Shown piece after piece: positions 1,648-45,074 of a DNA stretch of 60,017 nucleotides; position 1 is the first letter of the stretch, and every line of letters starts with the position of its first letter. This DNA is from an uncultured cyanobacterium (GTDB lineage Bacteria > Cyanobacteriota > Cyanobacteriia > Cyanobacteriales > Nostocaceae): positions 1-60,017 of the forward strand of contig CAINGU010000024.1 of assembly GCA_903848645.1 (NCBI GenBank), in the 5' to 3' direction. The notes beneath the pieces were generated by a model. It did no database searches. It had not been told where the DNA came from and saw only the letters and a program-made list of their open reading frames with translations. Position numbers and translations under genes: made by a program.

Positions 1648-1717
1648 ACTTAAAAAAAATACCCCAGATTCAGATATTTTCTAGTAGAATTACCAGTAAC
1701 CAAATTCAATCAATTCC

Positions 1718-2650: not shown

Positions 2651-2666
2651 ACATTAACAATTTATT

Positions 2667-3602: not shown

Positions 3603-3616
3603 ATTTTCAAAATTCC

Positions 3617-4207
3617 ATGTCCCCAACCCAACCACCAATCACCGATAACGCTCCTTTTCTCGATTTACGCAAGTATGATCAATCTTGGTTTGATCGAGGT
3701 CGCCCCAGTTGGTATATTTTATTTTGGTGGTTAGTTCAGGCCATTGTCTTTCCTCTCACTCCCCAACCCTTATATATTCTTCGTTCTAGCTTGCTACGTC
3801 TATTCGGCGCTCGGATAGGTAAAGGTGTATTAATTCGTCCCACAGCCCGCTTTACCTATCCTTGGAGAGTCTGCATTGGTGATTACAGTTGGGTGGGTGA
3901 TGATGTAGTTTTCTACAGTCTTGAGCAAATCAACATTGGCGAACATTGCGTCATTTCTCAGAAAACTTACCTATGTACAGGTAGCCATGATATCCAAGAT
4001 CCAGCATTTGGCTTAAAAACTGCAAGTATCACCATTGGTAATGGAGCATGGGTAGCCGCAGATTGTTTTATTACCCCCGGTGTAAATATTGGCTCAAATG
4101 CGGTAATTGGTACTCGTAGTAGTGTTTTTGGTAATATGCCAGCAGGACAAGTTTGTTGGGGAAATCCCTGCCGTCCCCAGTATGCTCGGCTAAAATTAGA
4201 TAGGTAA
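3617..4207 (+). CDS. WcaF-like left-handed beta-helix acetyltransferase, 196 aa
   Basis: Probably an O-acetyltransferase that decorates a polysaccharide from acetyl-CoA. An N-terminal hydrophobic segment (LFWWLVQAIVFPL, about residues 35-50) precedes hexapeptide repeats from about residue 65 to 185: ARIGKGVLIRP, VCIGDYSWVGDDVV, INIGEHCVIS, ITIGNGAWVA and VNIGSNAVIG. The likely catalytic His is in TGSHDI. This arrangement matches the colanic-acid WcaF family in length and order. It closes the glycosyltransferase operon and is followed by a strong terminator near 4455. Confidence 0.88.
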   Translation: MSPTQPPITDNAPFLDLRKYDQSWFDRGRPSWYILFWWLVQAIVFPLTPQPLYILRSSLLRLFGARIGKGVLIRPTARFTYPWRVCIGDYSWVGDDVVFYSLEQINIGEHCVISQKTYLCTGSHDIQDPAFGLKTASITIGNGAWVAADCFITPGVNIGSNAVIGTRSSVFGNMPAGQVCWGNPCRPQYARLKLDR

Positions 4208-31305: not shown

Positions 31306-33444
31306 ATGGAAAATGATGCGGTAACGCTCTACTGCCCAAATGAATATTGTCAATCTGCTAATCCCCTCACCCACAAATTTTGCCAGCAGTGTTCCACACC
31401 CTTACCGAAGCGTTATCTCTGGGTTGTGGGAGATGATCTCAGCCATTGTCATCCTGGAGCGATTGTAGCCGAGCGCTATTTAGTGATTAGCAAATCCATC
31501 CTTTTAGATATCAAACCTGGCTTATTACCCGAAATACCTGATTTAGATGATTTAGAGAGAATTAAACCTTATCTCAAACTAATTCCCTATCGTCTCAATA
31601 TACCGCAACTTTATGGAGTCCTCAAGTTAGGTCATGAGCAAAGCCAAACAGAAATATTACTATTAGAAAGACCACCATTAATAACTGATGCAACTATCAC
31701 CCAGGCAAATCTGTGCAGCAGTTTAGATACTGTTTGGAGTGAAGCCTCATCAATTCGCCAAATCCATTGGCTGTGGCAATTAGCTCATTTATGGCAACCT
31801 TTAGCCATTGAAGGAGTAGCATCTAGTCTCCTAGACCCATATTTAATTAGAGTAGAAGGGGCATTGATTCGCTTACTAGAATTGCGTTTTGATCGGGAAA
31901 ATACACCTAGATTATCCCAATTGGGAGAATTTTGGGTACAACTGCTCAAAAATGCTAAACCAAATATTGCTCCATTTATACAACAAGTATGTGATCTGCT
32001 AATACAGGGTGAAATTAACTCATCGAGCAAATTAATTAAAGTTTTAGATCAAGGATTGAGCCAATTAGAAAGATTTCAAACAACCAATATTAAAATCTAT
32101 ACTAAAACCGACTCAGGACCTAGCCGCCCACGTAACGAAGATGCTTGTTACCCCCCTAGCGATACTTTGATCGCTAAACCGCCCCAGCATAGCACCCTAG
32201 CAATCGTCTGTGATGGTATTGGTGGACATGATGGTGGCAATGTCGCCTCTAACCTAGCAATTGAAACTATTCAACAACAAGTCCAAGGACTAACTTCAGT
32301 TCCCTACGACAATATAGATCCCTCACTGCTACTTTCTGATTTAGAACGAGCAGTTGCAGTCGTTAATGACAAAATCAGCCAGCGTAACGATAGCGAACAT
32401 CGTCAAGGGCGACAACGCATGGGAACAACCATTGTCATGGCTTTACCTATCGCCCATGAAATGTATATTACTCATGTCGGTGATAGTCGTGCCTATTGGA
32501 TTACTCGCTATAACTGTTATCAAGTTACCTTAGATGATGATGTCGCTTCCCGTGAAGTCCGTTTAGGTTATGCTCTCTACAGGGAAGCATTGCAACACAG
32601 TGGTTCTGGATCCTTAGTTCAAGCTTTGGGAATGAGTAAAAGTACCTCACTGCATCCCACGTCTCAACGCTTTATTATTGACGAAGATGCAGTTTTTTTA
32701 CTCACATCTGATGGTTTGAGTGATTTTGACCGAGTAGAAGAATATTGGGAAACAGAAATATTACCCATGCTCTCTGGGAAAACAAGTATAGAAAATCTTG
32801 CCCAAAGACTAATAGAAATTGCTAATACTAAAAACGGACATGATAATGTCACCATTGCCTTAGTACATTATCATGTCAAATATTCTGAACCAGATATAAC
32901 TATTACGGCAGACGTTTCTAGCCTTTTATCTAGCACAGAATTAGATCCATTAGATGATACGGTTAATGGCGAAAGTTTCAGTAATCATCAGAAAACTCAA
33001 GTCATTGCTGAAAATAAAACTATCAAACCTGCCCCAGTACCACTACAGTTGTTTGTTATTTTGGGATTAACGTTATTAGCTGGTTTATTGGGATATTGGT
33101 TTAAACTGCAACTCAAATCACCAACAATAATTTCATCTCCGTCCCCATTTTCCAGTCAACCGCCAACTACCGATACACAGAGAACTTTAGAGAATCTTTC
33201 TGCTAACTGGGTACTTACAGCCAATAGTTCCATAACTGTAAATAATCAAACTTTTCCTGCTCAAAGTTTTTTCCAAGTCATCGAGAAAAAAGTTAATCCT
33301 AATGCTGCGGATAATCCAGATTTACGGTTGCGGTTGTGTGCAACTAGCAATTCCCCAACTAAAATCATTGAACTTAACTTTTCCCAACTCCAAGATTTAG
33401 ATATCTCTATTTTACCATCGGATCAGCCTAGTCCCTGTGAATAG
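31306..33444 (+). CDS. PP2C-type Ser/Thr phosphatase with zinc ribbon and membrane anchor, 712 aa
   Basis: Residues 10-29 form a zinc ribbon (Cys10, Cys15, Cys26, Cys29). Residues 50-245 hold a divergent segment resembling a kinase-like or adaptor module. The PP2C domain spans about 265-525: SGPSRPRNEDACY, VCDGIGGHDGG, THVGDSRAYWI, LTSDGLSDF and GHDNVTIALV supply the metal-binding Asp residues. One membrane helix at about 583-603 (LFVILGLTLLAGLLGYWF) is followed by a 110-residue outer domain. It probably reverses Ser/Thr kinase signalling; two FHA proteins, readers of phospho-Thr, are encoded 10 kb away. It is convergent with the RiPP-like cluster. Confidence 0.9.
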   Translation: MENDAVTLYCPNEYCQSANPLTHKFCQQCSTPLPKRYLWVVGDDLSHCHPGAIVAERYLVISKSILLDIKPGLLPEIPDLDDLERIKPYLKLIPYRLNIPQLYGVLKLGHEQSQTEILLLERPPLITDATITQANLCSSLDTVWSEASSIRQIHWLWQLAHLWQPLAIEGVASSLLDPYLIRVEGALIRLLELRFDRENTPRLSQLGEFWVQLLKNAKPNIAPFIQQVCDLLIQGEINSSSKLIKVLDQGLSQLERFQTTNIKIYTKTDSGPSRPRNEDACYPPSDTLIAKPPQHSTLAIVCDGIGGHDGGNVASNLAIETIQQQVQGLTSVPYDNIDPSLLLSDLERAVAVVNDKISQRNDSEHRQGRQRMGTTIVMALPIAHEMYITHVGDSRAYWITRYNCYQVTLDDDVASREVRLGYALYREALQHSGSGSLVQALGMSKSTSLHPTSQRFIIDEDAVFLLTSDGLSDFDRVEEYWETEILPMLSGKTSIENLAQRLIEIANTKNGHDNVTIALVHYHVKYSEPDITITADVSSLLSSTELDPLDDTVNGESFSNHQKTQVIAENKTIKPAPVPLQLFVILGLTLLAGLLGYWFKLQLKSPTIISSPSPFSSQPPTTDTQRTLENLSANWVLTANSSITVNNQTFPAQSFFQVIEKKVNPNAADNPDLRLRLCATSNSPTKIIELNFSQLQDLDISILPSDQPSPCE

Positions 33445-33462
33445 GTTTAAGTGAACTTTTTA

Positions 33463-34629
33463 TTAGTCGAGCAGTTTGCCACCTGGTAGTCCGTACTTTC
33501 TCGCAAATCCAAGTCTAAACTTTGTAACAATGAGCAAAATTAAGCGATCGCGCAAATAACGTCCCTTATCTTGTAGGCGTTCCAAACTCACTAGATCAAA
33601 GAGAGCTTGGTCAAGAACTTTGGGAGACTCATCAGGTTGACGAAAAAGCCTTTGGCAAACCCACTCACCCAGCCACTTGATTGCGGAATCAGCTTGAATC
33701 TTTTGCCAAACTTCTGCGGGAAGATTTGTTTGCAAGAGTTCTTTAGACAGGAAAAGTCCCAGAAATAAACGTCTCCGACAGCCCAGCCGACTAGCTTGTT
33801 CGAGCATTTGTTGCCAATTAAGGGTTTGATGAGTGCGAATCGCTTCGGCAATGTCACAAATTTGCAAGAATTTTTGCCAGCGATCGCCACAGCCGTGGGC
33901 GCACAGATAGAGGATTTCATCTTCAGGCGAGAGGTTGAAAATAGGGGTATCAGCTAAGGATACCGGAATCATCCGCTCCCACAAACCTTCATAATTGATT
34001 GGAAAAGATGAGTAAGTCGCTCTGAGTTGCCAGTGAAGCTCCACCATAACAGGTGTCTTATTGCTTTTGTAGGTATAAGCTTTCACGTAAGGAGATTGCA
34101 ATTGGGCAATTTCCTGTTCATAGGTTAACTTTTCTGCGTTCTCATACCTTTGGGCGATGAGCAGGTTTTTGGCTGTTAAGATATCAGATTTGTGAAACAA
34201 AATATCCAGATCGCAAAACTGCCGCAGTACCAAGTTGCCGTAAACTGAATTAGCCAAAGCAGGTCCTTTGAAGGGAATGGCAGAGATATCACTGTCCTTG
34301 AACATATTCAGAAGATCAAGGAGTTGGCTAGTCAAGAATCGGTTATAGGCTGCATGGGCGTGAAAAAGGGTTTGCAGCTTAACCCAGATATCTTTGGGAA
34401 CGGCTTCTGGACAAGTGGCCTTGAGACTCCAGTACAGCAGAGGCATCACTCCATGCTGATTTGCTATCTCGATCAGAAATGCCCAGTCAATGCTGTTCTG
34501 AAGCAGAATAATAATTCGCTCGGCTGTTTCAGAATCTACATGGGTTCTAGCACAGCAGAGTAATAATTCGACTTCTGGGCGACTAGCCACCAATGATTTT
34601 TTCACAGCAGCTTGAAGTAAGATTTCCAT
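33463..34629 (-). CDS. NTP_transf_5-type nucleotidyltransferase, 388 aa
   Basis: An uncharacterised nucleotidyltransferase family often found in lasso-peptide and polysaccharide loci. The diagnostic segment is FKGPALANSVYGNLVLRQF, then CDLDILF with the metal-binding Asp pair, near residues 118-145. VELHWQL near residue 195 and LSPEDEILYLCAHGC near 240 are also conserved. It is the last gene of the minus-strand RiPP-like cluster, 137 bp after the ABC transporter. A role in modifying the peptide or a sugar donor is inference. Confidence 0.85.
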   Translation of the reverse strand: MEILLQAAVKKSLVASRPEVELLLCCARTHVDSETAERIIILLQNSIDWAFLIEIANQHGVMPLLYWSLKATCPEAVPKDIWVKLQTLFHAHAAYNRFLTSQLLDLLNMFKDSDISAIPFKGPALANSVYGNLVLRQFCDLDILFHKSDILTAKNLLIAQRYENAEKLTYEQEIAQLQSPYVKAYTYKSNKTPVMVELHWQLRATYSSFPINYEGLWERMIPVSLADTPIFNLSPEDEILYLCAHGCGDRWQKFLQICDIAEAIRTHQTLNWQQMLEQASRLGCRRRLFLGLFLSKELLQTNLPAEVWQKIQADSAIKWLGEWVCQRLFRQPDESPKVLDQALFDLVSLERLQDKGRYLRDRLILLIVTKFRLGFARKYGLPGGKLLD

Positions 34630-34766
34630 AAAACGTTTACCTGTAATTATTCAGACAAGTACCTGAGCAAAATTAATTGCACATTTTTTGAAAAAACAGA
34701 AATCCCTGTTCCCTGTTCCCTCTCCTTAATACGAAATTTATTCCGCACTACTACTTACTTCAGCCT

Positions 34767-36590
34767 TTAACGATAATATTGGGCTTGCATTTCAAATAGA
34801 TGAGCGTAAGTCTCCCCAGACTGCATTAATTCTTCATGAGTACCACTTTCCACAATTCTCCCCTTATCTACCACATAAATACGGTCAGCCATCCTGACTG
34901 TAGATAACCGATGGCTGATCAAAATAGCAGATTGACCTTGAAGAAGTTCACGAAACTGCTTGAACACTTCATATTCAGCCTTGGGATCTAAGGCGCTGGT
35001 GGGTTCGTCAAGAATGATGATTTGGGAGTCTCGCAGAAATGCCCTGGCCATGGCCACTTTTTGCCACTGACCAATGCTGAGTTCCTCACCCTGTTCAAAT
35101 TGCTTACCCAGAATCGAATCATAGCCTTTGGGTAACTGTTCAATCACCTTGTCAGCACCAGAATGGCGGGCAGCATTAACAATTTTGTCGTCATCAGGGG
35201 GACAGTCAATATTCCCAAACCAAATATTCTCCCGGGCGCTCAGATGGTACTTCATATAATCCTGAAAAATCACACTGATTTGGCGGCGCAGGTCTGGAAT
35301 GGCAAACTCGCGTAGGTCAATGCCATCCACAGTAATCTTGCCGACTGTTGGGTCATATAAGCGGCATAGAAGTTTAATGAGCGTAGTTTTGCCAGAGCCA
35401 TTTTCTCCTACTATGGCCACTACTTCCCCAGGACGAATGGTGAGATCGATTGAATGAAGGGCTGTGCGGGAACTATCAGGGTATTGAAAACCAACCTGGT
35501 GAAACCTAATCCCTTGGCGCATCGGTTGGGGTACAGGTAGGGGATGGGATGGTTCGACTACCTTGGCTTTGAGGTTTAAGAATTCATAGAAATGGGAAAT
35601 GAAGAGGTTGTCTTCGTACAGACCACTGAAACCGCTAAAAAAATCCCAGAGAGCGCCGTATCCACGCTGAAAAGCCTGGTTATACATTACCAAGTCTCCC
35701 AGGGTAATTCTCCCATGTATCGCCTGATAAGCAATGAAAACATAGGACGCTAACATGACACAAGTAGAGATGAGTTGGGTAACTAGACTTATTAGGGACT
35801 GGCGAAAGTTTATAGCAAGCTGTTCATGGCGGAGTTGCCGACGCAGAGCAAAAAACCGACTCTTAAACAGATGACCTAAATTGAACAGCCGAATTTCTTT
35901 AGCATGGCTATCACTGGTAATAATGTTGCTATAGTAGTTAGCCCGCCGTTGGGTGGATGTTCGCCTTTGATGCCAGCGATAGATAATCCCTGTATATTGC
36001 AACCGCACGAAAATTCTGGGAATCTCCGAAGTGATCATCAGGGCTATAAGTCTCCAATCAAACAAGGCTAACAACCCTGACATCGCCACCAAGGAGATGA
36101 TACTCTGACCAATTGCCACTAAACGATTGAGAATCTGAACGCAGCGATCAGAAGATTCCTTGCGGGCGCGACTGAGCATATCGTAGAAATCTGAGTTTTC
36201 ATAGTATTCCAAATCAATCTCAATCGCTTTGGAATGGAGGATATCATCAACATGATCGGAGATAGCGTGCGCCTGCATAGTTGTCACAACCTCTCCAATC
36301 GAGTCAAACACTCCTCTGGTGAGAGTAAGGATGCCAGTGAGACCAATTAACAGCAATATCTGTCTGAAAGCTGCCTCCTTATCCGTTGTTGTTAGCCCTT
36401 TAGCCACTGCATCTAGTAAGAGCTTGCTCAGATATAGTGACAATAAGGGGAATATCCCCTGTACAAGCAACAGGAAACCCCTGGCGATCGCCCAGCCTGG
36501 ACCACTTTCCCAGACAAGGCCCAAGGCATTTCCCAGGTGTAGTGCCTCCTCGATTCTCCGTTTTATAGTTAGGGGCTTAACAAAAGTCAT
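34767..36590 (-). CDS. ABC transporter, fused permease and ATPase (exporter), 607 aa
   Basis: A half-transporter that works as a homodimer in the inner membrane. Residues about 30-340 are the six-helix exporter domain. The ATPase follows: Walker A VGENGSGKTT near residue 400, Q-loop VIFQDYMK, signature LSIGQWQKVAMARA, Walker B IIILDEPTSALD and the H-loop ISHRLSTV. It is the exporter type used by lasso and other RiPP clusters. There is no N-terminal C39 peptidase, so leader cleavage must be done elsewhere, fitting the B2 protease gene just upstream. Confidence 0.93.
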   Translation of the reverse strand: MTFVKPLTIKRRIEEALHLGNALGLVWESGPGWAIARGFLLLVQGIFPLLSLYLSKLLLDAVAKGLTTTDKEAAFRQILLLIGLTGILTLTRGVFDSIGEVVTTMQAHAISDHVDDILHSKAIEIDLEYYENSDFYDMLSRARKESSDRCVQILNRLVAIGQSIISLVAMSGLLALFDWRLIALMITSEIPRIFVRLQYTGIIYRWHQRRTSTQRRANYYSNIITSDSHAKEIRLFNLGHLFKSRFFALRRQLRHEQLAINFRQSLISLVTQLISTCVMLASYVFIAYQAIHGRITLGDLVMYNQAFQRGYGALWDFFSGFSGLYEDNLFISHFYEFLNLKAKVVEPSHPLPVPQPMRQGIRFHQVGFQYPDSSRTALHSIDLTIRPGEVVAIVGENGSGKTTLIKLLCRLYDPTVGKITVDGIDLREFAIPDLRRQISVIFQDYMKYHLSARENIWFGNIDCPPDDDKIVNAARHSGADKVIEQLPKGYDSILGKQFEQGEELSIGQWQKVAMARAFLRDSQIIILDEPTSALDPKAEYEVFKQFRELLQGQSAILISHRLSTVRMADRIYVVDKGRIVESGTHEELMQSGETYAHLFEMQAQYYR

Positions 36591-36666
36591 GGAATTAGGA
36601 AAAAATAATATTTTTGTGACATAGTGCGATTGCGTTTTTTAAAGTACCAAATATCTGGTAAAGATA

Positions 36667-37104
36667 TTATTTAGCAAAAGATGCCAGTTGGGTAAAATCA
36701 GAGAGATCGGGGATATGGCCAATGATAATCTTTCCCTCACTTTCCACCCAAGCATGAGCCTTTAATTCTCCTGCTTCACCTTTGGTAACACCAAGGCATA
36801 GTTGAGATCCGTAACCATAACGAGACATGAAAACTTGGCAAGTCAAGGCACGGGCTAGACACTTTACACCTCCAGGCATATAACGACTGCTCACTTCAAC
36901 AGCCCAGATAATTTTTTCCAGGGAGGTTTGGTGTTTTTCTTGGCTTGGGAATTTGGTTTTACTAATGGGTGATAGAAGTTGCTGCAAAGTTTTAAATGAT
37001 ATCAACCACAATCCTAATCTGACTAATGTTAATAAAATAAAAGTGCTAATTAAAAGGTTGCTTTCTCTACGGTTTAGAGCGAAAAATTTAGCGATTTTAT
37101 TCAT
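36667..37104 (-). CDS. Lasso-peptide-type B2 protease (transglutaminase-like), 145 aa
   Basis: B2 proteins are papain/transglutaminase-fold cysteine proteases that remove the leader peptide of lasso-type precursors. A hydrophobic N-terminal segment (LLISTFILLTLVRLGLWLI, about 18-36) may anchor it. The catalytic core is intact: Cys82 in GGVKCLARAL, His117 in KAHAWVE and an Asp in HIPDLSDF. Length is normal for the B2 family. It lies 21 bp after the epimerase gene and 76 bp before the exporter. Confidence 0.87.
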   Translation of the reverse strand: MNKIAKFFALNRRESNLLISTFILLTLVRLGLWLISFKTLQQLLSPISKTKFPSQEKHQTSLEKIIWAVEVSSRYMPGGVKCLARALTCQVFMSRYGYGSQLCLGVTKGEAGELKAHAWVESEGKIIIGHIPDLSDFTQLASFAK

Positions 37105-37125
37105 TTTCTTACTTTAAGCTTTTTA

Positions 37126-38058
37126 TCATTGTATAATTGATGATGCAATTAAACCATTAATAGCCGATTCTGCTGACCACTCAGCCTGGAAATCTAAACA
37201 TAAAGATATTTTGGAAATATCAGCTTGTGAATGTTGAATATCTCCCAAACGAGGAGCAGCGAAATTAATTTCTGCTCGCCACTGGGGAAAATATTTTTTG
37301 AGGATATCAACCAACTGCAATAAAGAAGTAGGTTTTCCAGTTCCTAAATTACAAATTAAGGATGAACCAGGAGTAATATTCGCCTTTAATGCTTGAGAAA
37401 AAGCCCTAACTACATCTTTAACATAAATAAAGTCTCTGGTTTGAGTTCCATCGCCGTAAATCGTGATTGGTAAGCCACGTTGCATCATATCAACAAATCG
37501 AGAAATTACACCGGAGTAGGTTGAATCAGGAACTTGTCGGGGACCAAATACGTTAAAAATTCGTAAGCCTACAAAGGAAAAACCTACTTGTTTAGCAAAC
37601 AGACTACCATATTGTTCACTGACTAATTTTTGTAAACCATAGGGTGAGAGAGGAGAGGTTTTTTGATCTTCAGAAATCGGTAATTGAGTCAGATTCCCAT
37701 ATACAGATGCAGAACTCGCAAACACTAACTTAGGAATACCTAAAGCTTGACAAAGTTGAATTACAGCCAGAGTTGCGGAAAGATTATTGTGATGAGCTTC
37801 TAGAGGACGATGCAAAGATTCTGTCACCGATGAAATAGCTGCTAAATGGGCAATACCATCAACTTTTTCTGTAAAATCTTCTGGTTGACATATCAAAATG
37901 TCTTTTTTTAGAAACCTCAGACGAGGATGTTGAGGTAGGTTTTGTAAGCGTCCCGTGGTTAAATTATCAACGACAGTGACATGATGACCTTCTGATAACA
38001 ATTGTTCTGTAAGATGAGAGCCAATAAATCCGGCTCCACCAGTGACAATAAAATGCAT
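37126..38058 (-). CDS. NAD-dependent sugar epimerase/dehydratase (SDR), 310 aa
   Basis: The start MHFIVTGGAGFIGSHL at 38058 is a textbook Rossmann motif; a longer frame to 38118 would overlap the upstream glycosyltransferase by 56 bp and adds nonconserved residues. The catalytic SSASVYG (Ser/Thr) and YGLQKLVSE (Tyr-x3-Lys) are present. It resembles UDP-glucose 4-epimerases, so it probably supplies a nucleotide sugar to the glycosyltransferases of the cluster. The spacing of 4 bp to the preceding gene indicates one operon. Confidence 0.88.
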   Translation of the reverse strand: MHFIVTGGAGFIGSHLTEQLLSEGHHVTVVDNLTTGRLQNLPQHPRLRFLKKDILICQPEDFTEKVDGIAHLAAISSVTESLHRPLEAHHNNLSATLAVIQLCQALGIPKLVFASSASVYGNLTQLPISEDQKTSPLSPYGLQKLVSEQYGSLFAKQVGFSFVGLRIFNVFGPRQVPDSTYSGVISRFVDMMQRGLPITIYGDGTQTRDFIYVKDVVRAFSQALKANITPGSSLICNLGTGKPTSLLQLVDILKKYFPQWRAEINFAAPRLGDIQHSQADISKISLCLDFQAEWSAESAINGLIASSIIQ

Positions 38059-38062
38059 AGTC

Positions 38063-38956
38063 TTAAATTTGCTTAGTAGATATACATAATCGTAACTCCT
38101 CATATTTTGAGGTTTCACCCCGCACTTCTCGATAGCGATGCAAAACTTCCTTCGCTTGCTCTATTTGATTATTTTTAATATAGAATCGTGCAAGTTTTAG
38201 ATAGTAATCGTAAAAACAGGGATCAAGAAAATGAATAGGTATTTTTAGCAATTCTGGATTGCGATTAAGAACTTTTTCCTTAACACGCAGGTGGTTAATA
38301 AACATTAACTCTTGATTTTTAGAAAGGTTGTTTGATGAGTTACGATAACGGGCTAAGACTTCATTTAAAAAATAAATCGGAAATTTTTCAATCAGGCGCA
38401 GCCATAAATCGTGATCTTCACAAGAGCGCAGAGTTTCATCAAATAAACCCACTTCATCTAAACAGTTTCGACGCACAACAACGGTTAAAACTGGAATATA
38501 GTTATATCTAAAAAGAGTCCATAATACTTGCAGATTAGGAGTAGGAAACGCTTGATTGTAAGAACTCCCTAACAAACCATTTTCATCAGAAAAAAAGAGT
38601 GCATCTGAATAGATTAAGCCAAAATTTGGATTTGCTTCTAAGATAGAAATCTGTTTTTCTAACTTTTGAGGTTCCCACAGATCATCGTCATCTAAAAAAG
38701 CGATATACTTGCCTCTTGCAGATCGAATTCCAGTATTACGAGCCGCAGATAATCCTTGATTGGTTTGATGAATAGCGGTAATGCGAGTATCGCTAAATTG
38801 AGCCAACACTTGCGGAGTATTGTCCTGAGAACCATCGTTGACGACTATAATTTCGTAGTCCTTATAGGTTTGTGCTAGGACGCTATTAATTGCCTGACTG
38901 ACAATATGGCTACGCTGGTAAGTAGGAATAATAACAGAGACTGTTGGCATAAACAA
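38063..38956 (-). CDS. Family 2 glycosyltransferase, 297 aa
   Basis: The N-terminus VSVIIPTYQRSHIVSQAINS, EIIVVNDGSQDNT and the metal site FLDDDDLWEP near residue 93 define a GT2 enzyme. No membrane helix is clear. The C-terminal 90 residues are helical and may give acceptor specificity. It lies between the HPr-kinase-like gene and the epimerase in the RiPP-like cluster, so its acceptor could be the peptide or a lipid-linked sugar; neither is proven. Confidence 0.9.
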   Translation of the reverse strand: MFMPTVSVIIPTYQRSHIVSQAINSVLAQTYKDYEIIVVNDGSQDNTPQVLAQFSDTRITAIHQTNQGLSAARNTGIRSARGKYIAFLDDDDLWEPQKLEKQISILEANPNFGLIYSDALFFSDENGLLGSSYNQAFPTPNLQVLWTLFRYNYIPVLTVVVRRNCLDEVGLFDETLRSCEDHDLWLRLIEKFPIYFLNEVLARYRNSSNNLSKNQELMFINHLRVKEKVLNRNPELLKIPIHFLDPCFYDYYLKLARFYIKNNQIEQAKEVLHRYREVRGETSKYEELRLCISTKQI

Positions 38957-39016
38957 TTGAAGATTTACAAAATTTTCTCAGTAGATATTAGGTAGCTATT
39001 CAAATTATTGATGTTG

Positions 39017-40030
39017 CTAAACTAAAGTATGAATCAGGCGTAAATCCTCTAAAATAGCATCGTAAATTTTTCCCAAACTCCCTAAATCATCAGGACGTAA
39101 TAACTCCCGCACAGGAACAGTTTTCGCCAATTGACCTAACTCCTGAAACTCCTGTTTACACTGTTGGGGATTCAGGAAAGCCCGCCCATAGGCATTAAAC
39201 ATCAGATGCTTCATGGCTTCCGGTAAAGAGAGGGAATTAATTATCGGTGCTGTGAGATTGGGGTCACGTTCTCCTAATATGTACACAGCAATTAATGGCA
39301 AAGCTTGGGAATGAAATTGCCATTTTTCTTGATTCTTACCTTGCAAATCTATAAAGCGTTTATCTAAATTTGTTGATACCAGTGATAACTCTTCTATTGA
39401 GCCGTGAACAGCATTTACAGAATTAGGCCACAGACGCAGACGAGGATAAGCAGACTGTACCCAAAACCTTTTTTCATCAGGAATAATTGCGGCAATATCA
39501 TCTGCTAAAATCGGTAATCCACGGGCAGCTAAGGCTGCTGCTGTGGTTGATTTCCCCGCGCCTGATTGTCCTAAAATGGCAATAGCATTACCATCAATGG
39601 CAACTACACTAGAATGAAGACAAGTTACTCCCCGCAACCGTAACAGATGACCGAGAACACAACCCAGCAACAAAGATACCGCATCCGTAAATAGTTCATC
39701 TCTAGACCAAAAACCCCAAACTTGACTCCCATCAGGATTCAAAATGAATTCCACGCAATCAACCCCATCAAAAGACCGTATCCGCCAATAAGTGCCATCA
39801 TCCTGGTGTGTCGTCCACAGGTGGAAGCCTGTTTGTTGGTAGGACTCTAATGGCACATTCCAAAAAGCTAGATTCAGTAATGGCTGTTGACTCTGCTGTT
39901 CACCAACTAAGTGAACAACAACATCTATGGATGCAGAACTATTAACAGCAACTAACCCTGGTAGGGAGCGATTAATAGACAGGTTAATTCCATAAAATTG
40001 ATAGTAAAAATGATCGTTTTTAATTGACAT
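39017..40030 (-). CDS. HPr-kinase-like protein, 337 aa
   Basis: HPr-kinase-related proteins in lasso clusters phosphorylate Ser on the peptide. Residues 1-120 form an N-terminal beta-rich domain (FYGINLSINRSLPGL onward). The P-loop AILGQSGAGKSTTAAAL lies near residues 149-165, followed by GLPILADDIAAI, the HprK-type acidic motif. The conserved His in GVTCLHSSVV precedes the P-loop. It is the first gene downstream of the two precursor genes, which makes it a good candidate for modifying their many Ser and Thr residues. Confidence 0.85.
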   Translation of the reverse strand: MSIKNDHFYYQFYGINLSINRSLPGLVAVNSSASIDVVVHLVGEQQSQQPLLNLAFWNVPLESYQQTGFHLWTTHQDDGTYWRIRSFDGVDCVEFILNPDGSQVWGFWSRDELFTDAVSLLLGCVLGHLLRLRGVTCLHSSVVAIDGNAIAILGQSGAGKSTTAAALAARGLPILADDIAAIIPDEKRFWVQSAYPRLRLWPNSVNAVHGSIEELSLVSTNLDKRFIDLQGKNQEKWQFHSQALPLIAVYILGERDPNLTAPIINSLSLPEAMKHLMFNAYGRAFLNPQQCKQEFQELGQLAKTVPVRELLRPDDLGSLGKIYDAILEDLRLIHTLV

Positions 40031-40276
40031 TTATGTCTATATTTGCATTAGATGGATCAACAATTTTATCTAAAACTATGTAAGCAGGTTTATTTTTAAA
40101 TAAGAATTTAATCGTCTTTCCTGCCTCTATTAAAGAAAGGGAAGGTAGAAAAGTATATTTAAGCTAAATTTATGGGTAATTTTTCTACCTCATCAATTTT
40201 CCTTACTTACTAAGTCTACTTTCCCCCCATTAATGTGACAGCTAGTCAGTATGATATATGGGTATTTTTTTATACT

Positions 40277-40414
40277 CTAAGTATTTAACCGGGGACGGGT
40301 GGTGGTACTGAAACCACGACTACCACCAACAGCTTCTGTCAAACCGGAGATTTTACCGTGAGCTTTCAATTCAGGTTCAGAATATTTATTTTTTGCGTTT
40401 TCAGATTGTGACAT
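40277..40414 (-). CDS. RiPP precursor peptide A with lasso-type leader, 45 aa
   Basis: The 45-codon frame begins MSQSENAKNKYSEPELKAHG, continues KISGLTEA and ends VGGSRGFSTTTRPRLNT. The leader has the Y-x2-P-x-L-x3-G and penultimate-Thr pattern (Tyr11, Pro14, Leu16, Gly20, Thr26) that PqqD-type recognition domains read in lasso precursors. Cleavage two residues after Thr26 would free AVGGSRGFSTTTRPRLNT. This core has no Asp or Glu at positions 7-9, so a lasso lactam cannot form. AAGGA lies about 9 bases before the ATG. A close paralogue is encoded 252 bp upstream. The 246 bp down to the kinase gene shows no further gene. Confidence 0.83.
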   Translation of the reverse strand: MSQSENAKNKYSEPELKAHGKISGLTEAVGGSRGFSTTTRPRLNT

Positions 40415-40470
40415 TTGAGTAATCCTTATTTTTTGCGTGTTTCTGATTATTCCTGCTTAGGAACTATCAG

Positions 40471-40527
40471 ATTATATACAAGTAAGATACTATCAGTCAA
40501 CTATTTGCTACATAAAGTTTCTGTAAA
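40471..40527 (-). promoter_or_regulatory. Promoter of precursor A with conserved upstream box
   Basis: On the minus strand a TATAAT -10 (40471-40476) is preceded by a 27-bp box at 40501-40527 containing ACAGAAACTTTATGTAGCAA. The box begins 24 bases upstream of the -10. The same box occurs at the same spacing before precursor B and pqqD. Confidence 0.72.
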
Positions 40528-40534
40528 TATAATT

Positions 40535-40558
40535 CCCTCTCCTTAATTCAGAAGAGGG
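40535..40558 (-). terminator. Possible weak terminator between the precursor genes
   Basis: CCCTCT and AGAGGG form a 6-bp stem with a 12-base loop, followed on the minus strand by AATTATATTT. It could limit read-through from precursor B into the precursor A promoter. Confidence 0.3.
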
Positions 40559-40666
40559 ATGTCAGCTAGGACAAGGAGTTCGATAATTCCATCACTTGTC
40601 TGTACAACTTAGCCCCAGGGGAAAGCCAACAAGGTAGGCAGATTTATTGTGTCAATCCGTACCTCA

Positions 40667-40822
40667 TTAAACAGGAAGACGTTCGGTAGTCCCGGTAGTC
40701 GAGAAACCAGTGGTACTGAAACCACCACTACCACCAACAGCTTCTGTCAAACCAGAGATTTTACCGTGAGCCTTCAATTCAGGTTCAGAATAGTTATTTT
40801 TAGCGTTTTCAGATTGTGACAT
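40667..40822 (-). CDS. RiPP precursor peptide B with lasso-type leader, 51 aa
   Basis: The first 32 residues match precursor A except Asn for Lys at position 10, giving the same Tyr11/Pro14/Leu16/Gly20/Thr26 leader. The predicted core after Glu27 starts AVGGSG, then has two GFSTT units and GTT, and ends ERLPV. Half of the core is Gly, Ser or Thr. No acidic residue lies at core positions 7-9; the only one is Glu47 at core position 20. The unit GFSTT looks internally duplicated relative to precursor A. The Shine-Dalgarno and 5' leader are shared with A. Confidence 0.83.
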   Translation of the reverse strand: MSQSENAKNNYSEPELKAHGKISGLTEAVGGSGGFSTTGFSTTGTTERLPV

Positions 40823-40878
40823 TTGAGTAATCCTTATTTTTGGTTTGTTTCTGATTGTTCCTGATTGGAAAGTATCAG

Positions 40879-40935
40879 ATTATATACAAGTAAGATACCA
40901 TCAGTAAACTATTTGCTACATAAAGTTTCTGTAAA
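40879..40935 (-). promoter_or_regulatory. Promoter of precursor B with conserved upstream box
   Basis: TATAAT at 40879-40884 (minus strand) and the 27-bp box at 40909-40935, spaced exactly as in the precursor A promoter. The sequence between them is also nearly identical, so precursor and promoter were duplicated together. Confidence 0.72.
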
Positions 40936-40947
40936 GTTATTTTTGAT

Positions 40948-42141
40948 TTATTGATGATTATTCTTTTTATTATCAGTAGTAGATGCCAACTCTTCATATA
41001 TCTGGAACATCCGCTTTTGTAAAATTGCTTCATCATACTGCTCGACAATAACTTGCCGTGCTTGGGCTAGATGTGCTTCTCGCTCTTGGGGAGGTTGATT
41101 GACAACTTTAATCATTGCCTCTGCTAGAACCTCTGGGTTTTCAGGTTCTACCAAAGTACAAAATTCTTCAATGAAAGTACCCCGATAAGCTAATAAATCA
41201 CAGGTAATCACTGGGCGTTCACAGGCAACGGCTTCAATGAGTGTGGAAGGAAAGGCATCAGTGGCAGGATAATTGATAATTACATCTGCTAAGTTGTAAC
41301 CTGTAGGCATGAAATTATAAGGTAGAGAAGGCATCCAACGCAGGTTATCAAATAAACCAAGTTCTTCTGCTTGCTTGCGGATACTTTCGTAAATAGCTAC
41401 TGATTCTTCCCCACCACCACGTCCTAGCTTTGAAAATACTAGTACCGTCGGTTTTGTGAATTTAGGATAAGCCTGGGCATAAGCTGTAAATATCTGCTCA
41501 TGGTTGTACAGTTTAGACCAGCCACGGGGGGAAAACAGAATTCTGGCTTCATCGTCCGTAATTTTTAATACTTCCCGTCGCCACTTTAGCAAATCCTTCG
41601 TAACTCCAGGGCGAAAATGTTGGGTGTTTGTCCCTAAAGGAATTAATTCGACTCGTTGATTAGAGTTGAGCAAGGCTTTGGATTTGTCTATTAAACTCGG
41701 TGTTTCTACAATCAGTACACCAGTGTTTTTAAAGACTTGGCTCACTCTATCATTATGCTTGCTGTGTTCCCTTTCTGATTGTAATAAATGATTTAAAAAG
41801 CCCCAAGCCGAGACAACCAGAGGTTTCACATTCGCCAATGCACAACATTCAGCGTGCCAGCCAATGGCGTGGACATGAATAATATTAGGCTGAAATTCCT
41901 CTACAAGTTGACGTAATGGCGCTGCCATTTCCTCTGCCATCTTATCTTCATAGGGGTAAGTATCGGTAAACTCTTCTTGATACTTTCGCCAAACAGTGGG
42001 GAAATAGCGGTAATTTTTGGGAGGGTCGTTTTCGTAAGGGTCTACATCTCCTAGTAAGTAAACCTCATAACCTGCTTTGACTACCCAATCTAAGGGTCGT
42101 GTTAAGGCAACACCCCCAGAACCAATCATCAGTACACGCAT
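40948..42141 (-). CDS. Family 4-type (GT-B) glycosyltransferase, 397 aa
   Basis: The N-terminal domain starts MRVLMIGSGGVALTRPLDWV and carries IIHVHAIGWHAE. The C-terminal GT-B donor domain shows ILFSPRGWSKLYNHE, VIINYPATDAFPSTLIEAVACERP with the donor-binding Glu, and a C-terminal helix. It uses a nucleotide sugar at the cytoplasmic face. It lies 21 bp after pqqD and just before precursor B, inside the cluster, so peptide or scaffold glycosylation is likely but unproven. Confidence 0.9.
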   Translation of the reverse strand: MRVLMIGSGGVALTRPLDWVVKAGYEVYLLGDVDPYENDPPKNYRYFPTVWRKYQEEFTDTYPYEDKMAEEMAAPLRQLVEEFQPNIIHVHAIGWHAECCALANVKPLVVSAWGFLNHLLQSEREHSKHNDRVSQVFKNTGVLIVETPSLIDKSKALLNSNQRVELIPLGTNTQHFRPGVTKDLLKWRREVLKITDDEARILFSPRGWSKLYNHEQIFTAYAQAYPKFTKPTVLVFSKLGRGGGEESVAIYESIRKQAEELGLFDNLRWMPSLPYNFMPTGYNLADVIINYPATDAFPSTLIEAVACERPVITCDLLAYRGTFIEEFCTLVEPENPEVLAEAMIKVVNQPPQEREAHLAQARQVIVEQYDEAILQKRMFQIYEELASTTDNKKNNHQ

Positions 42142-42162
42142 GATTTAATTATTTTATTCTAG

Positions 42163-42453
42163 TTAAGCATCAGTAATTTCTACTATTCCAGCCTTAACTA
42201 ATTTCTCAATGAATTTGAGCAAGTCTTGTTTTAACTTCTCTGGCTCTACTTCATACTCTTTTAATAAGGTTTCATAAGCTGTCTGGATAGAGTCTGATTC
42301 GGTCAGCGCAAGTAACATTTTTGTACCAACCTCGTTTTGACTAAAATACTCTTCGGTTTGGAGATTGAGCAAAACAGACTCGCCAGCTAGGTCTTGAGTC
42401 AGAACATTTGTAGATAGGGATACTTTTTGATTTAAGACTATTTGGAGTGTCAT
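42163..42453 (-). CDS. PqqD-family RiPP recognition protein (lasso B1-like), 96 aa
   Basis: PqqD domains (RREs) bind the leader of RiPP precursors and present them to modifying enzymes. The sequence has the family strands ALT-free opening MTLQIVLNQKVSLSTNVL, then GESVLLNLQTEEYFSQNEVG, and the helix TAYETLLKEYEVEPEKLKQD. A longer frame to 42501 would start upstream of the -10 at 42480, so the ATG at 42453 is the likely start. It opens the cluster and is co-transcribed with the glycosyltransferase. Confidence 0.86.
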   Translation of the reverse strand: MTLQIVLNQKVSLSTNVLTQDLAGESVLLNLQTEEYFSQNEVGTKMLLALTESDSIQTAYETLLKEYEVEPEKLKQDLLKFIEKLVKAGIVEITDA

Positions 42454-42479
42454 TATTGTTTCTGATTGGGAATGATCAG

Positions 42480-42536
42480 AGTATATATGAATACGGTACA
42501 ATAACCAAACTATTCGCTACATAAAGTTTGTGTAAA
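42480..42536 (-). promoter_or_regulatory. Promoter of pqqD with the same conserved box
   Basis: TATACT at 42480-42485 (minus strand) and a box at 42510-42536 that differs at two positions from those before the precursor genes. The -10 to box spacing is again exactly 30 bases start to start. This ties regulation of the recognition protein to that of the peptides. Confidence 0.7.
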
Positions 42537-42711
42537 GTTATTTTGGATTGACGGATTTAAAGTTGACCAAATCCCCCAATCCCCAATCTCGCTAAATTGT
42601 TAAAAACCTGAAATAATACAGATAATCAACAGCAGCAACAATACTTGCTTGTCGAAACTTCTGACTAGAATATCTGTATCTGTGTTTTGAACGTTTAGTT
42701 TTCACCAATCT

Positions 42712-44346
42712 ATGTCGAGCCTGAATTTGGCGATGCCTTCGGCGAGCATAGCTATCGCCCGTCTAGTAAATACTGGCACAGATAACTTCGCCATTTGGGT
42801 AGTCAAAGCCCCCTATCCCAGCGGCTATGTTCTCCGTGATTGTGTTTTCTCCGCTGAACTTAATCAAGTTTGGCAAGAATGGCAGCAAATGTTTGCTGGT
42901 CATAGTCCTTTAGATATTACTTCTCTTTCAACTTCTCCATCAGTTAATTTACCCTTAGCTGTAATTTCACCTTCAGAAGGTCAAAGTACAAGTCCTTACA
43001 GTAGTCGCCTGATGCAATCCTTGGGTATCAATTTATGGCGATGGGTATTTGATGGGGCGATTCTTGGTAGTTGGGAACGTAGTCGTGGTATGGCTATGGG
43101 TCAGCATACTCAATTACGCTTTCGTTTGGAAATTCGTGATCCTGATTTGATTGCCTTACCTTGGGAAATTATGCAGCCAGAAGCTGGACAATCAGCTATA
43201 TCTCTTTCTCAAGATATTTTATTTAGTCGTACCACCAGTGAAGTTGAACCTTTGCCGGAATTGCGAAGCGACCAAAGTGTAAATATTCTGCTGGTGTTAG
43301 GACATGATCATAAATTACAACTAGATCGGGAAGCATCCTTACTGAAAAAAATATTGTTAGAAGGTCGTCCTGTGGGAAAAACAGCCGCAGGATATGCACC
43401 TTGTACAGTAAAAACTCTGGTACAACCTACTAGCACCGAGTTAATTCAGGAGTTAGAAACTAAAGCTTATAATGTTTTCTTTTATGCCGGACACGGACTA
43501 CCAGACCCGGATGGAGGCTTATTATTTTTAGGAAATGGACTCAAGATTAATGGCATAGAATTAGCTCAAGTTTTAACTCGCACAGGTGTAAAACTCGCAG
43601 TTTTTAACGCCTGTTGGGGAGCGCAACCAGCAGCAATTAATCATCAAGCTATACCTGCTAGTAGTTTGGCAGAAGTCCTGATTCGCCATGGTGTACCGGC
43701 TGTGTTAGGAATGCGTGATGAAATTGCTGATGCAGAAAGTCATAGTTTTATCCAAACTTTTGCTTCCAGCTTGCGATCGCGCAAATCCATTGATGAAGCG
43801 GTAGCAATAGCCAGACAAGAACTATTAACACTGTATAAATTCAATCAACCAGCTTGGACATTACCAGTTCTTTACTTCCATCCCGATTTTGATGGAGAAC
43901 TGATTAAAACCGTAGATGAAGGAGTTACAGAACTACCAGATACGGCAATTTTTGGCATAGCTACTCCTGTAAATACAGCCTATTTGCGATCGCTCTCCCC
44001 AGGAGGTAAAACTTGGTTATTACGTTCTGGAGTCACCCGCATCGGTCGCACGAAAGATAATGATATTGTGATCTCGGAAATTTACATTTCTAAACGCCAC
44101 GCAGAAATTTTATGCCGGAATACTCTCAATGAAACTACATCCAGTACAACTTATTACCTGCAAGATTTTTCCACCTATGGGACTACCTGGTATTTAAGTC
44201 CTAACGGTTGGCAACAGATCCTCCGGGAAGAAGTCCCTTTACAATCGGGAATGCAGTTAATGTTTGGGAGTTCTAAAGGCGAAATTTGGGAATTTATTAG
44301 GGAGGAGTCACCGAGTCAGAAGTCAGGAATAAAAACCGTTTCATAA
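42712..44346 (+). CDS. CHAT protease-FHA protein, 544 aa
   Basis: CHAT is a caspase-like cysteine protease domain; here the dyad is intact, His261 in FYAGHGLPDPDGG and Cys301 in FNACWGAQ. The N-terminal 120 residues are a beta-rich module seen in other cyanobacterial CHAT proteins. The C-terminal FHA domain (about 440-530) shows RIGRTKDNDIVI and ISKRHAEI, a phospho-Thr binding site. The combination suggests proteolysis controlled by phosphorylation. The extreme N-terminus contains a segment (MPSASIAIA) encoded by a palindromic repeat, 42729-42759. Confidence 0.9.
   Translation: MSSLNLAMPSASIAIARLVNTGTDNFAIWVVKAPYPSGYVLRDCVFSAELNQVWQEWQQMFAGHSPLDITSLSTSPSVNLPLAVISPSEGQSTSPYSSRLMQSLGINLWRWVFDGAILGSWERSRGMAMGQHTQLRFRLEIRDPDLIALPWEIMQPEAGQSAISLSQDILFSRTTSEVEPLPELRSDQSVNILLVLGHDHKLQLDREASLLKKILLEGRPVGKTAAGYAPCTVKTLVQPTSTELIQELETKAYNVFFYAGHGLPDPDGGLLFLGNGLKINGIELAQVLTRTGVKLAVFNACWGAQPAAINHQAIPASSLAEVLIRHGVPAVLGMRDEIADAESHSFIQTFASSLRSRKSIDEAVAIARQELLTLYKFNQPAWTLPVLYFHPDFDGELIKTVDEGVTELPDTAIFGIATPVNTAYLRSLSPGGKTWLLRSGVTRIGRTKDNDIVISEIYISKRHAEILCRNTLNETTSSTTYYLQDFSTYGTTWYLSPNGWQQILREEVPLQSGMQLMFGSSKGEIWEFIREESPSQKSGIKTVS
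42729..42759. repeat. Palindromic repeat inside the CHAT-FHA start
   Basis: GGCGATGCCTTCGGCGAGCA and TAGCTATCGCC form an imperfect palindrome. Its ATGCCTTCGGC core recurs inverted at 20443-20453. It lies in frame a few codons after the ATG. Confidence 0.5.
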
Positions 44347-44435
44347 GTACCAAAAGCAAGTCAATTATTTTACGGAAATCTAATTCTTCAGGTTGTAGCT
44401 GTCAACAAGAGCAATGAATTAATAGTGAGAAGAAA

Positions 44436-45074
44436 ATGAAAAACCCAACTAACGACTTAAATACTTTAAATATTATCCCATCACCAGTTGATTTAGAATT
44501 TCTAGAAACACTACTAGAACCTGAAGATGCTACCTATCCTTGGAATCTGGCTGATGAAGCTTCAGAAAGTTATTTTCAGCATCTAGAACAACAGTTTGGT
44601 TGGCAGGATTTCCCAGAAGCAGAAATACTGACAAGTGCAGATAATTTTTATCAAAACCTAGATATGATTTGGGATCAAGTTGCTATTGTTGAGAATGACG
44701 ATATTAGTAAAAAGACAGTTTATTATCTTCAGAAAGCTTTGCAAAATACTTTTTCGGTGATCCCTGAAGTTTTACTCACTGCTATTGCTCAAAAAGCTGC
44801 TGAAATCTTTATTCTTGAACAATCGGCCAGTGAGAAACTAGTGGAATGTGTACAAGCTTTACTACCTAATTGGGAAACAGGTGATTTGTTAGTTTTAGCT
44901 CGTCCTTTTGCTTACTCGATGCGGAGTAGTGAACCACACACATTGACATCTGTAATTAAAGATTTTGAACATCGAGATTGGGAAAATTTATCAGAAATAG
45001 AACAGGCAAAAATTAGTTTAGCGATCGCTAATTATGCCCTCCAACATCTCTCAAAATCCGAATCTCAACCCTGA
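44436..45074 (+). CDS. Conserved protein of unknown function next to CHAT-FHA, 212 aa
   Basis: An acidic, mainly helical soluble protein without signal peptide. Segments that look ordered are YPWNLADEASESYFQHLEQ (about 37-55), KKTVYYLQKALQNTFSVIPE (about 90-110) and ISLAIANYALQHLSKSE at the end. I know no function. It follows the CHAT-FHA gene by 89 bp on the same strand and may be a partner or regulator of the protease. Confidence 0.68.
   Translation: MKNPTNDLNTLNIIPSPVDLEFLETLLEPEDATYPWNLADEASESYFQHLEQQFGWQDFPEAEILTSADNFYQNLDMIWDQVAIVENDDISKKTVYYLQKALQNTFSVIPEVLLTAIAQKAAEIFILEQSASEKLVECVQALLPNWETGDLLVLARPFAYSMRSSEPHTLTSVIKDFEHRDWENLSEIEQAKISLAIANYALQHLSKSESQP

Follow-up and report, generated by a model that had tools for sequence, protein, structure and literature searches.

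What does a lasso-type peptide locus make when it has no lasso cyclase? The question is raised by ten genes on a contig (CAINGU010000024.1) of an uncultured Nostocaceae cyanobacterium, within the 60,017-nt stretch of DNA analysed here (the window); the window's genome is 5.4 Mb in size and 99.99% complete. All ten genes lie on the minus strand, in the order B1 (recognition protein), a family 4 glycosyltransferase (GT4), precursors A1 and A2, a kinase, a family 2 glycosyltransferase (GT2), a sugar epimerase, B2 (leader peptidase), an ABC exporter and a PF14907 nucleotidyltransferase. An earlier note on this DNA had described such a ten-gene, same-strand cluster, and a check of the open reading frames (ORFs) together with family searches bore the description out. 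We consider it likely that the genes form a self-contained, horizontally moving cassette for a ribosomally synthesized and post-translationally modified peptide (RiPP), related to lasso loci, with glycosyltransferases instead of a cyclase, and that a linear peptide bearing phosphate and sugar would be exported.

Gene content and conserved residues

Profile searches of all ten proteins gave the families that the earlier note had named (PF05402, PF00534, PF07475, PF00535, PF01370, NF033537, ABC and PF14907). B1 (42163..42453; PF05402, 53.5 bits) is a discrete PqqD-type RiPP recognition element (RRE) of 96 aa, counted from a conserved ATG. The recognition protein is therefore present as proposed, with a corrected start: the gene most likely begins at the ATG at 42453 and not at the upstream TTG, because its relatives begin there. 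A profile of 11 B1 proteins matches four solved chains (9x90, 5v1u TbiB1, 9x8z and 6jx3 TfuB1). The window's B1 is 84-88% identical to 5 cassette relatives, 53% to the B1 of a distant locus discussed below (L232) and 27-35% to 4 B1 proteins of other lasso-type loci.

B2 (36667..37104; NF033537, 114 bits against a cut-off of 33) is a lasso-type cysteine leader peptidase in which Cys82 and His117 are invariant (15/15 aligned sequences); a search of solved structures at E 0.01 gave no sequence relative of it. GT4 (40948..42141; PF00534) has a GT-B fold, and GT2 lies at 38063..38956 (PF00535, 132 bits). The NAD-dependent, GalE-like epimerase (37126..38118; PF01370, 202 bits) is classed as accessory. 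An MsbA-like ABC exporter (34767..36590; PF00005 and PF00664) is followed by the nucleotidyltransferase (33463..34629; PF14907, 197 bits), whose family we take to include PsmN, the pseudomycoidin nucleotidyltransferase.

The HPr-kinase-like protein (39017..40030; PF07475, 34.4 bits against a cut-off of 33.3) is a predicted peptide kinase and aligns with the solved HprK 1jb1 across residues 137-197. A His-Lys-Asp-Asp motif is reported to be catalytic in lasso kinases (PMC9266682). The corresponding residues of a PadeK/ThcoK-type kinase are present here (His139, Lys160, Asp177 and Asp178) and are kept in 91, 91, 87 and 89 of 92 aligned kinases, the positions having been assigned from the published motif in an alignment without PadeK or ThcoK. 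Predicted structures of GT4 (mean pLDDT, the predictor's confidence score, 52.4; 6 close sequences) and of the kinase (32.7; 7 sequences) were poor, and nothing is concluded from them.

Precursor peptides

Precursors A1 (40667..40822; 51 aa, predicted core AVGGSGGFSTTGFSTTGTTERLPV) and A2 (40277..40414; 45 aa, predicted core AVGGSRGFSTTTRPRLNT) share the leader MSQSENAKN(N/K)YSEPELKAHGKISGLTE. In both, the stretch YSEPELKAHGKISGLT fits the lasso YxxPxL motif, and the penultimate leader residue is Thr. Lasso-type features, namely the B1 RRE, the B2 protease and a YxxPxL leader with Thr at -2, are thus all present in the cassette. Against the cyanobacterial lasso model NF033528 the two precursors score 21.8 and 22.1 bits, below the cut-off of 33.

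A2 is a paralogue of A1 and lies inside a 233-nt repeat whose copies are 92% identical. Copies of a 102-nt repeat, 80-82% identical to the reference copy, precede A1, A2 and B1. This repeat holds promoter-like sites on the minus strand before A2 (TTGACT-18-TATAAT, 40471..40500; 11/12 consensus matches) and before A1 (TTTACT-18-TATAAT, 40879..40908; 10/12). The whole promoter scan was near chance (13 found against 7.9 +/- 3.0 expected), as was the terminator scan (2 against 1.6 +/- 1.6), so that the promoter-like sites are credible only because the repeat is shared.

We collected 30 precursor copies from 13 genomes, 27 of them with a normal start; the search used a leader pattern, which strongly diverged copies would escape. 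With so many copies, the short ORFs are conserved coding genes and more than a product of chance. The earlier note had stated that short ORFs lacking conservation would speak against its reading; they are conserved alongside the remaining genes in all 13 genomes. From the leader Tyr to core Phe8, the proportion of synonymous differences (pS) is 0.228 and that of nonsynonymous differences (pN) 0.013, giving a pN/pS of 0.057 (331 between-genome pairs), a value covering letters that the search pattern partly fixes. Where the pattern fixes nothing, the ratio rises to 0.151 over core positions 1-11 in 29 copies and to 0.358 over the first ten codons in 27. By these ratios the precursors are evidently under purifying selection.

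This conservation bears on a rival explanation, in which the short ORFs are incidental and the region is an ordinary exopolysaccharide locus, as the two glycosyltransferases and the epimerase would allow. We reject it as very improbable, since the short ORFs are conserved, carry a lasso-type leader and have an RRE and a lasso B2 as neighbours; none of the ten proteins matched a polymerase or flippase family, and the window's flanks are PP2C and CHAT-FHA genes.

Core residues Val2, Gly3, Gly4, Ser5, Gly7, Phe8, Thr10 and Thr11 are invariant in the 27 normal-start cores, which are 16-26 residues long with variable tails and consist to 30% of Ser or Thr. The invariant Ser5 is a candidate phosphorylation site. 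An Asp or Glu at core positions 7-9, as a lasso ring needs, occurs in neither window core and in one of the 27 (Asp9, genome G465). Among precursors near cyclases it occurs in 74 of 94 (Fisher p 6e-13, a value not for independent cases, since both sets hold related genomes and paralogues). These controls come from 56 of 78 loci with a cyclase above 200 bits and, being ORFs found by pattern, may include false ones. The proposal that the predicted cores could not form the ring fits both window cores and 26 of the 27 family cores, and does not extend to the one with Asp9.

None of the 27 cores ends in Ser and one ends in Thr, the C-terminal Ser being the acceptor for PadeK/ThcoK-type kinases. Because no cassette core ends in Ser, a paeninodin-like C-terminal acceptor is unlikely here. 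Only 22 of the 94 control precursors near cyclases end in Ser.

Search for a lasso cyclase

Using 77 lasso-type cyclase queries in tblastn we found no cyclase-like DNA in the window, nor any cyclase profile match. Five positive controls matched strongly, but they came from the loci that supplied the queries and show only that the search ran. In three other loci (L027, L030 and L031) one match of about 100 bases lies inside the B2 gene; we read these as B2 sequence joined to some query frames.

A genome-wide search, which the earlier note had proposed, revealed no lasso-type cyclase in the window genome. PF00733 matched twice there, once in a 638-aa protein and once, over 55 residues, in a frame of 264 aa. 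The 638-aa protein begins with MCGI, sits in a glycosyltransferase locus and is the genome's only Asn-synthetase-type protein of full length. In a 64-sequence tree, built by a quick method and with long branches flagged, it groups with AsnB-type proteins (21 with it included), separated from 43 lasso-type cyclases by a branch of support 100. By its placement the protein is AsnB-like, which accords with the claim that the cyclase is absent.

The same search took in the cassette carriers G094, G229, G292, G324, G361 and G382. In four of these (G094, G292, G324 and G361) B2 occurs at a single place, and all 12 of their full-length Asn-synthetase-type proteins belong to the AsnB group. These data bear on whether the product is a lasso peptide after all, closed by a cyclase acting from elsewhere in the genome. 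The leader, B1, B2, kinase and exporter are of lasso type, G229 and G382 have a second, cyclase-bearing lasso locus, and one core has Asp9. We nonetheless rejected this explanation as highly unlikely, given a window genome without lasso-type cyclase, the AsnB assignments in the four one-B2 carriers and the missing acid at 7-9 in 26 of 27 cores.

Distribution and mobility of the cassette

Among 388 genomes of the order, 10 matched the precursors at E <= 0.01, and 7 of these (the window's own included) have close copies. With GT4 as the query, 217 Nostocaceae genomes yielded copies of at least 83% identity in 13, again counting the window's own, and two distant copies in G437. The cassette recurs in 12 other Nostocaceae genomes: ten loci hold the whole run of genes between B1 and PF14907, except that three of them lack an intact epimerase; one is split over two contigs and one is cut at a contig end. 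Named carriers are Nostoc sp. ATCC 43529, Nostoc sp. FACHB-973, Nostoc paludosum FACHB-159, Desmonostoc muscorum FACHB-395, D. vinosum and D. geniculatum. Gene order, for which a survey of relatives had been suggested, is the same in all cassette stretches examined, and no cyclase was found in the examined stretches of the 12 genomes.

GT4 and GT2 are present in 11/11 loci complete from B1 to PF14907, the window included, and GT2 is duplicated in G464. G094, G229 and G419 have a degraded epimerase gene or none; the gene seems dispensable, being reduced to short remnants in L030 (7614-7775) and L028 (7906-8052) and absent in L226 (13009-13134).

Across nine genomes, B1, GT4 and the kinase are 83-88% identical to those of the window, intact epimerases 85-87% and GT2 76-81%. 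Values are lower for B2 (63-69%), the exporter (57-58%) and PF14907 (39-43%), which gives the window's cassette a mosaic look (33463-37104). Because of this lower identity, the B2-to-PF14907 end of the window's cassette may have been exchanged with another locus.

The borders of the cassette are visible in a congener. Bases 1-1331 of L238 match window 32124-33445 by blastn, and bases 1356-3836 match 42576-45072; the jump from 33445 to 42576 is bridged by 24 bases, so that the inserted element corresponds to 33446..42575. Its edges coincide with those of the cassette, which means that the insert consists of the ten genes and that no cyclase arrived with them. To judge from this site, the ten genes moved as a unit.

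The PP2C-type and CHAT-FHA genes at the flanks (window 31306-33444 and 42712-45074) adjoin in congeners and are split by the cassette in the window. The CHAT-FHA gene occurs in each of the 15 other genomes of the window's genus, the cassette GT4 in none. In 9 of the 15 the PP2C gene ends 63 to 475 bases upstream of CHAT-FHA; in two more the PP2C match is equally close and stops short of the protein end, and in four no PP2C match was found within the short stretch examined. A search of 12 cassette loci from 9 genomes turned up neither of the window's flanking proteins, so the insertion sites there differ. In a distant genome (G163), L104 (5133-10266) holds a lone B2 gene and, beside it, a row of genes for proteins that resemble the window's PP2C and CHAT-FHA proteins at their starts.

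Movement as a complete unit also bears on the idea that this is a lasso locus in decay, drifting after the loss of its cyclase. Such decay could explain the missing cyclase, the eroded epimerase of three loci, a stop at codon 5 in 3 of the 30 precursor copies and one further broken copy. It is hard to square with insertion of the whole cassette, purifying selection on the precursors, intact catalytic residues in the kinase and B2, and an unchanged gene order across genomes at the identities given above for B1, GT4, the kinase and GT2. We regard it as scarcely credible and reject it.

Other B2 loci

B2 was found in 105 of the 388 genomes. We surveyed the surroundings of the B2 places above the cut-off, 126 loci including the window, of which 83 have a cyclase-profile match and 43 do not; eight of the 43 are the cassette (seven genomes, one split over two contigs). 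No B2 was found in the stretches examined of L026 and L033. Strong relatives of the cassette GT4 and GT2 occur in this set only in the cassette, with weak glycosyltransferase matches in L034, L126, L141, L146, L151 and L153, and the epimerase profile also matches in the cyclase-bearing loci L135, L136, L142 and L201. When the distant GT4 of G437 was used as the query against the 388 genomes (E <= 1e-50), only the seven cassette genomes were retrieved.

In an unrooted tree of 102 B2 proteins, built by a quick method, the 12 cassette B2 proteins form one clade (support 96), and most of the B2 around it come from loci with a cyclase. Loss of the cyclase by a lasso-type ancestor fits this placement, though the tree alone is no proof of the direction of change.

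Several other loci also lack a detected cyclase. L108 (9483-12785) and L117 (2726-6147) encode B1, B2, two precursors, a kinase and PF14907, with no such glycosyltransferase. Their cores are very short, with Ser at core 3 in 3/4 and an acid at core 7 or 9 in two; the source of L108 (G055) also has a cyclase-bearing locus, L162. L114 (9484-16147) encodes B1, B2, three precursors ending in long RGG repeats, a kinase, a fatty-acid-hydroxylase-like protein, an ABC protein and PF14907; no cyclase was found within the 20 kb examined, yet there is an Asp at core position 9. L115 is a near relative of L114 with its B2 near a contig end. In L146 (6529-12191), where no cyclase was found, B1, a precursor-like ORF of about 118 aa, a kinase, B2, an acyl carrier protein, PF14907 and an AMP-binding enzyme occur together, and an acylated RiPP is a possible product.

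Linkage of B1 and GT4

Outside the cassette, B1 also stands beside a GT4 in L232 (7915-10869) of G437, a minimal set that encodes B1, a GT4 47% identical to that of the window, a precursor-like ORF of 47 codons with the leader-like YTTPEITLLG and a GT2; B2, kinase and cyclase were not found there. Relatives of the L232 B1 with at least 49% identity occur in 14 of 217 Nostocaceae genomes, comprising 12 cassette genomes, G437 itself and G426; the B1 of G324 is off its contig. In all 14 a cassette-type GT4 adjoins B1. The locus in G426 (L269) consists of a B1 frame, with no ATG seen within the stretch read, and a broken GT4 behind it. Two further genomes, G274 and G452, matched the L232 B1 at 40%, and the G274 locus (L169) has a cyclase. 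The 12 cassettes are one lineage, so that independent cases are few. From the pairing of B1 with GT4 in the two distant relatives we infer that the RRE serves GT4, which suggests that in the cassette it now feeds the glycosyltransferases.

Comparison with known systems

Among the matches listed in the open-licence literature, none comes nearer than the linear polyphosphorylated peptides (LPP; Popov et al. 2026), which have a core gene set without a cyclase; a phosphorylated linear peptide was shown in B. subtilis, with phosphate at core Ser3 (PMC13381572). Like the cassette, LPP loci combine a discrete RRE, a precursor with a YxxP leader, an HprK-like kinase, an NTP transferase and an MsbA-like exporter, without a macrolactam cyclase in the core set. 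The LPP product is linear, as would be that of the cassette judging from its genes, and Ser5 of the cassette recalls Ser3 of the LPP core (PMC13381572).

The two differ in protease, leader motif, host phylum and glycosyltransferases. LPP leaders are cut by an archaeal-type signal peptidase (SpI), and the cassette has B2 in that place; no signal peptidase family (SpI/SipW-like) was found among the ten cassette proteins, to which that search was limited. The LPP leader reads YxxPxVLxHQxIxFETxxS and that of the cassette YSEPELKAHGKISGLT (compared by eye). The conserved LPP core set as described has no dedicated glycosyltransferase, whereas the cassette has GT4 and GT2, and LPP are described as restricted to Bacillota, whereas the cassette hosts are Nostocaceae (PMC13381572). 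Filing the cassette under LPP was considered and rejected: we looked in the cassette for both the SpI/SipW-like peptidase and the LPP leader motif, and found neither.

A looser kinship is conceivable, in which the cassette is a cyanobacterial branch of LPP-like peptides with phosphorylation as the sole defining modification and the glycosyltransferases act elsewhere or little. Kinase, RRE, exporter and PF14907 are common to LPP (PMC13381572) and many cyanobacterial lasso loci, and the cyclase-less L108 and L117 have the same B1, B2, precursor, kinase and PF14907 set without such a glycosyltransferase. We think this possible and rather doubtful. GT4 and GT2 persist in every complete locus, whereas the epimerase is lost or broken in three, and the pairing of B1 with GT4 is kept in L232, a locus in which neither kinase nor B2 was found.

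Phosphorylated and hexosylated lasso peptides are another point of comparison. Paeninodin and pseudomycoidin loci share with the cassette a precursor, B proteins and a kinase with His-Lys-Asp-Asp, and in pseudomycoidin an annotated nucleotidyltransferase is needed for hexose on phospho-Ser (PMC9266682). Both belong to the lasso peptides, have a cyclase and accept the phosphate on a C-terminal Ser (PMC9266682), in contrast to the cassette with no cyclase, 26 of 27 cores without an acid at 7-9 and no core ending in Ser. The earlier note proposed a product class distinct from lasso peptides. The missing cyclase and ring acid agree with that distinction; the idea of a wholly separate class has to be softened, because a cyclase-less, kinase-bearing RiPP family with a related leader has already been published (PMC13381572).

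Cyanobacterial lasso loci (for example L032, L034 and L128) are arranged B1-B2-C-A-kinase-ABC, often with PF14907, and share leader style and kinase family with the cassette. B2 and the exporter of L032 are 48% and 56% identical to those of the cassette, those of L034 54% and 39%. Such loci differ in having a cyclase and mostly D/E at core 7-9, and close relatives of the cassette GT4 were not found in them.

RRE surveys have linked RREs to glycosyltransferases in putative RiPP clusters and list many lasso-type RREs without peptidase and cyclase (PMC7470986, PMC12710340). They describe RRE-glycosyltransferase fusions, whereas in the cassette B1 and GT4 are separate genes accompanied by B2 and a kinase (PMC7470986, PMC12710340). 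Among the matches listed, confined to open-licence papers and thus weak evidence, we found no cyanobacterial cyclase-less lasso-type cassette with glycosyltransferases.

Discussion

The reading that we favour, a mobile, cyclase-less cassette for a linear phospho-peptide bearing sugar, can be put as a sequence of steps, each of them, with its site, order and function, drawn from the genes alone. B1 would bind the YxxPxL leader, and the HPr-like kinase would phosphorylate the core, most likely at Ser5. The PF14907 protein may then add a sugar to that phosphate, and/or GT4 and GT2 may build sugars on the phospho-serine or on Thr10/Thr11. B2 would cut the leader after the conserved Thr-Gln/Glu, and the ABC pump would export a linear, acidic, sugar-bearing peptide with a variable tail. 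For window cores cut after Thr-Glu, the calculated masses are 2286.113 Da (A1) and 1876.987 Da (A2) without modification, 2366.079 and 1956.953 Da with one phosphate, and 2528.132 and 2119.006 Da with a phosphate and a hexose.

Several observations weigh against this reading. The G465 core has an Asp at position 9, and G229 and G382 each carry a separate cyclase-bearing lasso locus; the genome-wide cyclase search left out the carriers G419, G462, G464, G465, G466 and G470. Three precursor copies have a stop at codon 5 (L026 3034, L229 9933 and L230 9994). These were left out of the core counts; by eye they too have no acid at 7-9; the L026 core is two residues shorter, and the L230 core carries a Ser at position 4. 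A further copy, broken and uncounted, lies in G292. The epimerase is lost or broken in three loci, and both it and GT2 belong to generic families. Linkage of B1 and GT4 outside the cassette amounts to two cases, one of them decayed; the surroundings of L232 are rich in glycosyltransferases, which makes adjacency by chance more likely, and no B1 was found beside the second GT4 relative of G437 (L233, 44% identical).

A broader proposal, for and against which we see about equal weight, is a RiPP class in which a lasso-type RRE hands the precursor to dedicated glycosyltransferases instead of a cyclase, yielding linear phospho-glycopeptides. On this view the lasso leader with B1, B2, kinase and exporter would form a general chassis that takes exchangeable main enzymes: a cyclase in most loci, GT4 and GT2 here, none in L108 and L117, and perhaps the adenylating enzyme with acyl carrier protein of L146 and the fatty-acid-hydroxylase-like protein of L114.

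Genome mining that requires a cyclase overlooks such loci. Thanks to Ser5, Thr10 and Thr11, to the exact borders and to the linkage of B1 with GT4, the chemistry is open to direct testing; the B1-GT4 pair might also be turned into a tool for leader-guided peptide glycosylation. If the favoured reading is true, cyclase-less relatives exist outside Bacillota, the stated limit of the published family, and lasso-type leader recognition and cutting would be a portable chassis that is not tied to the knot.

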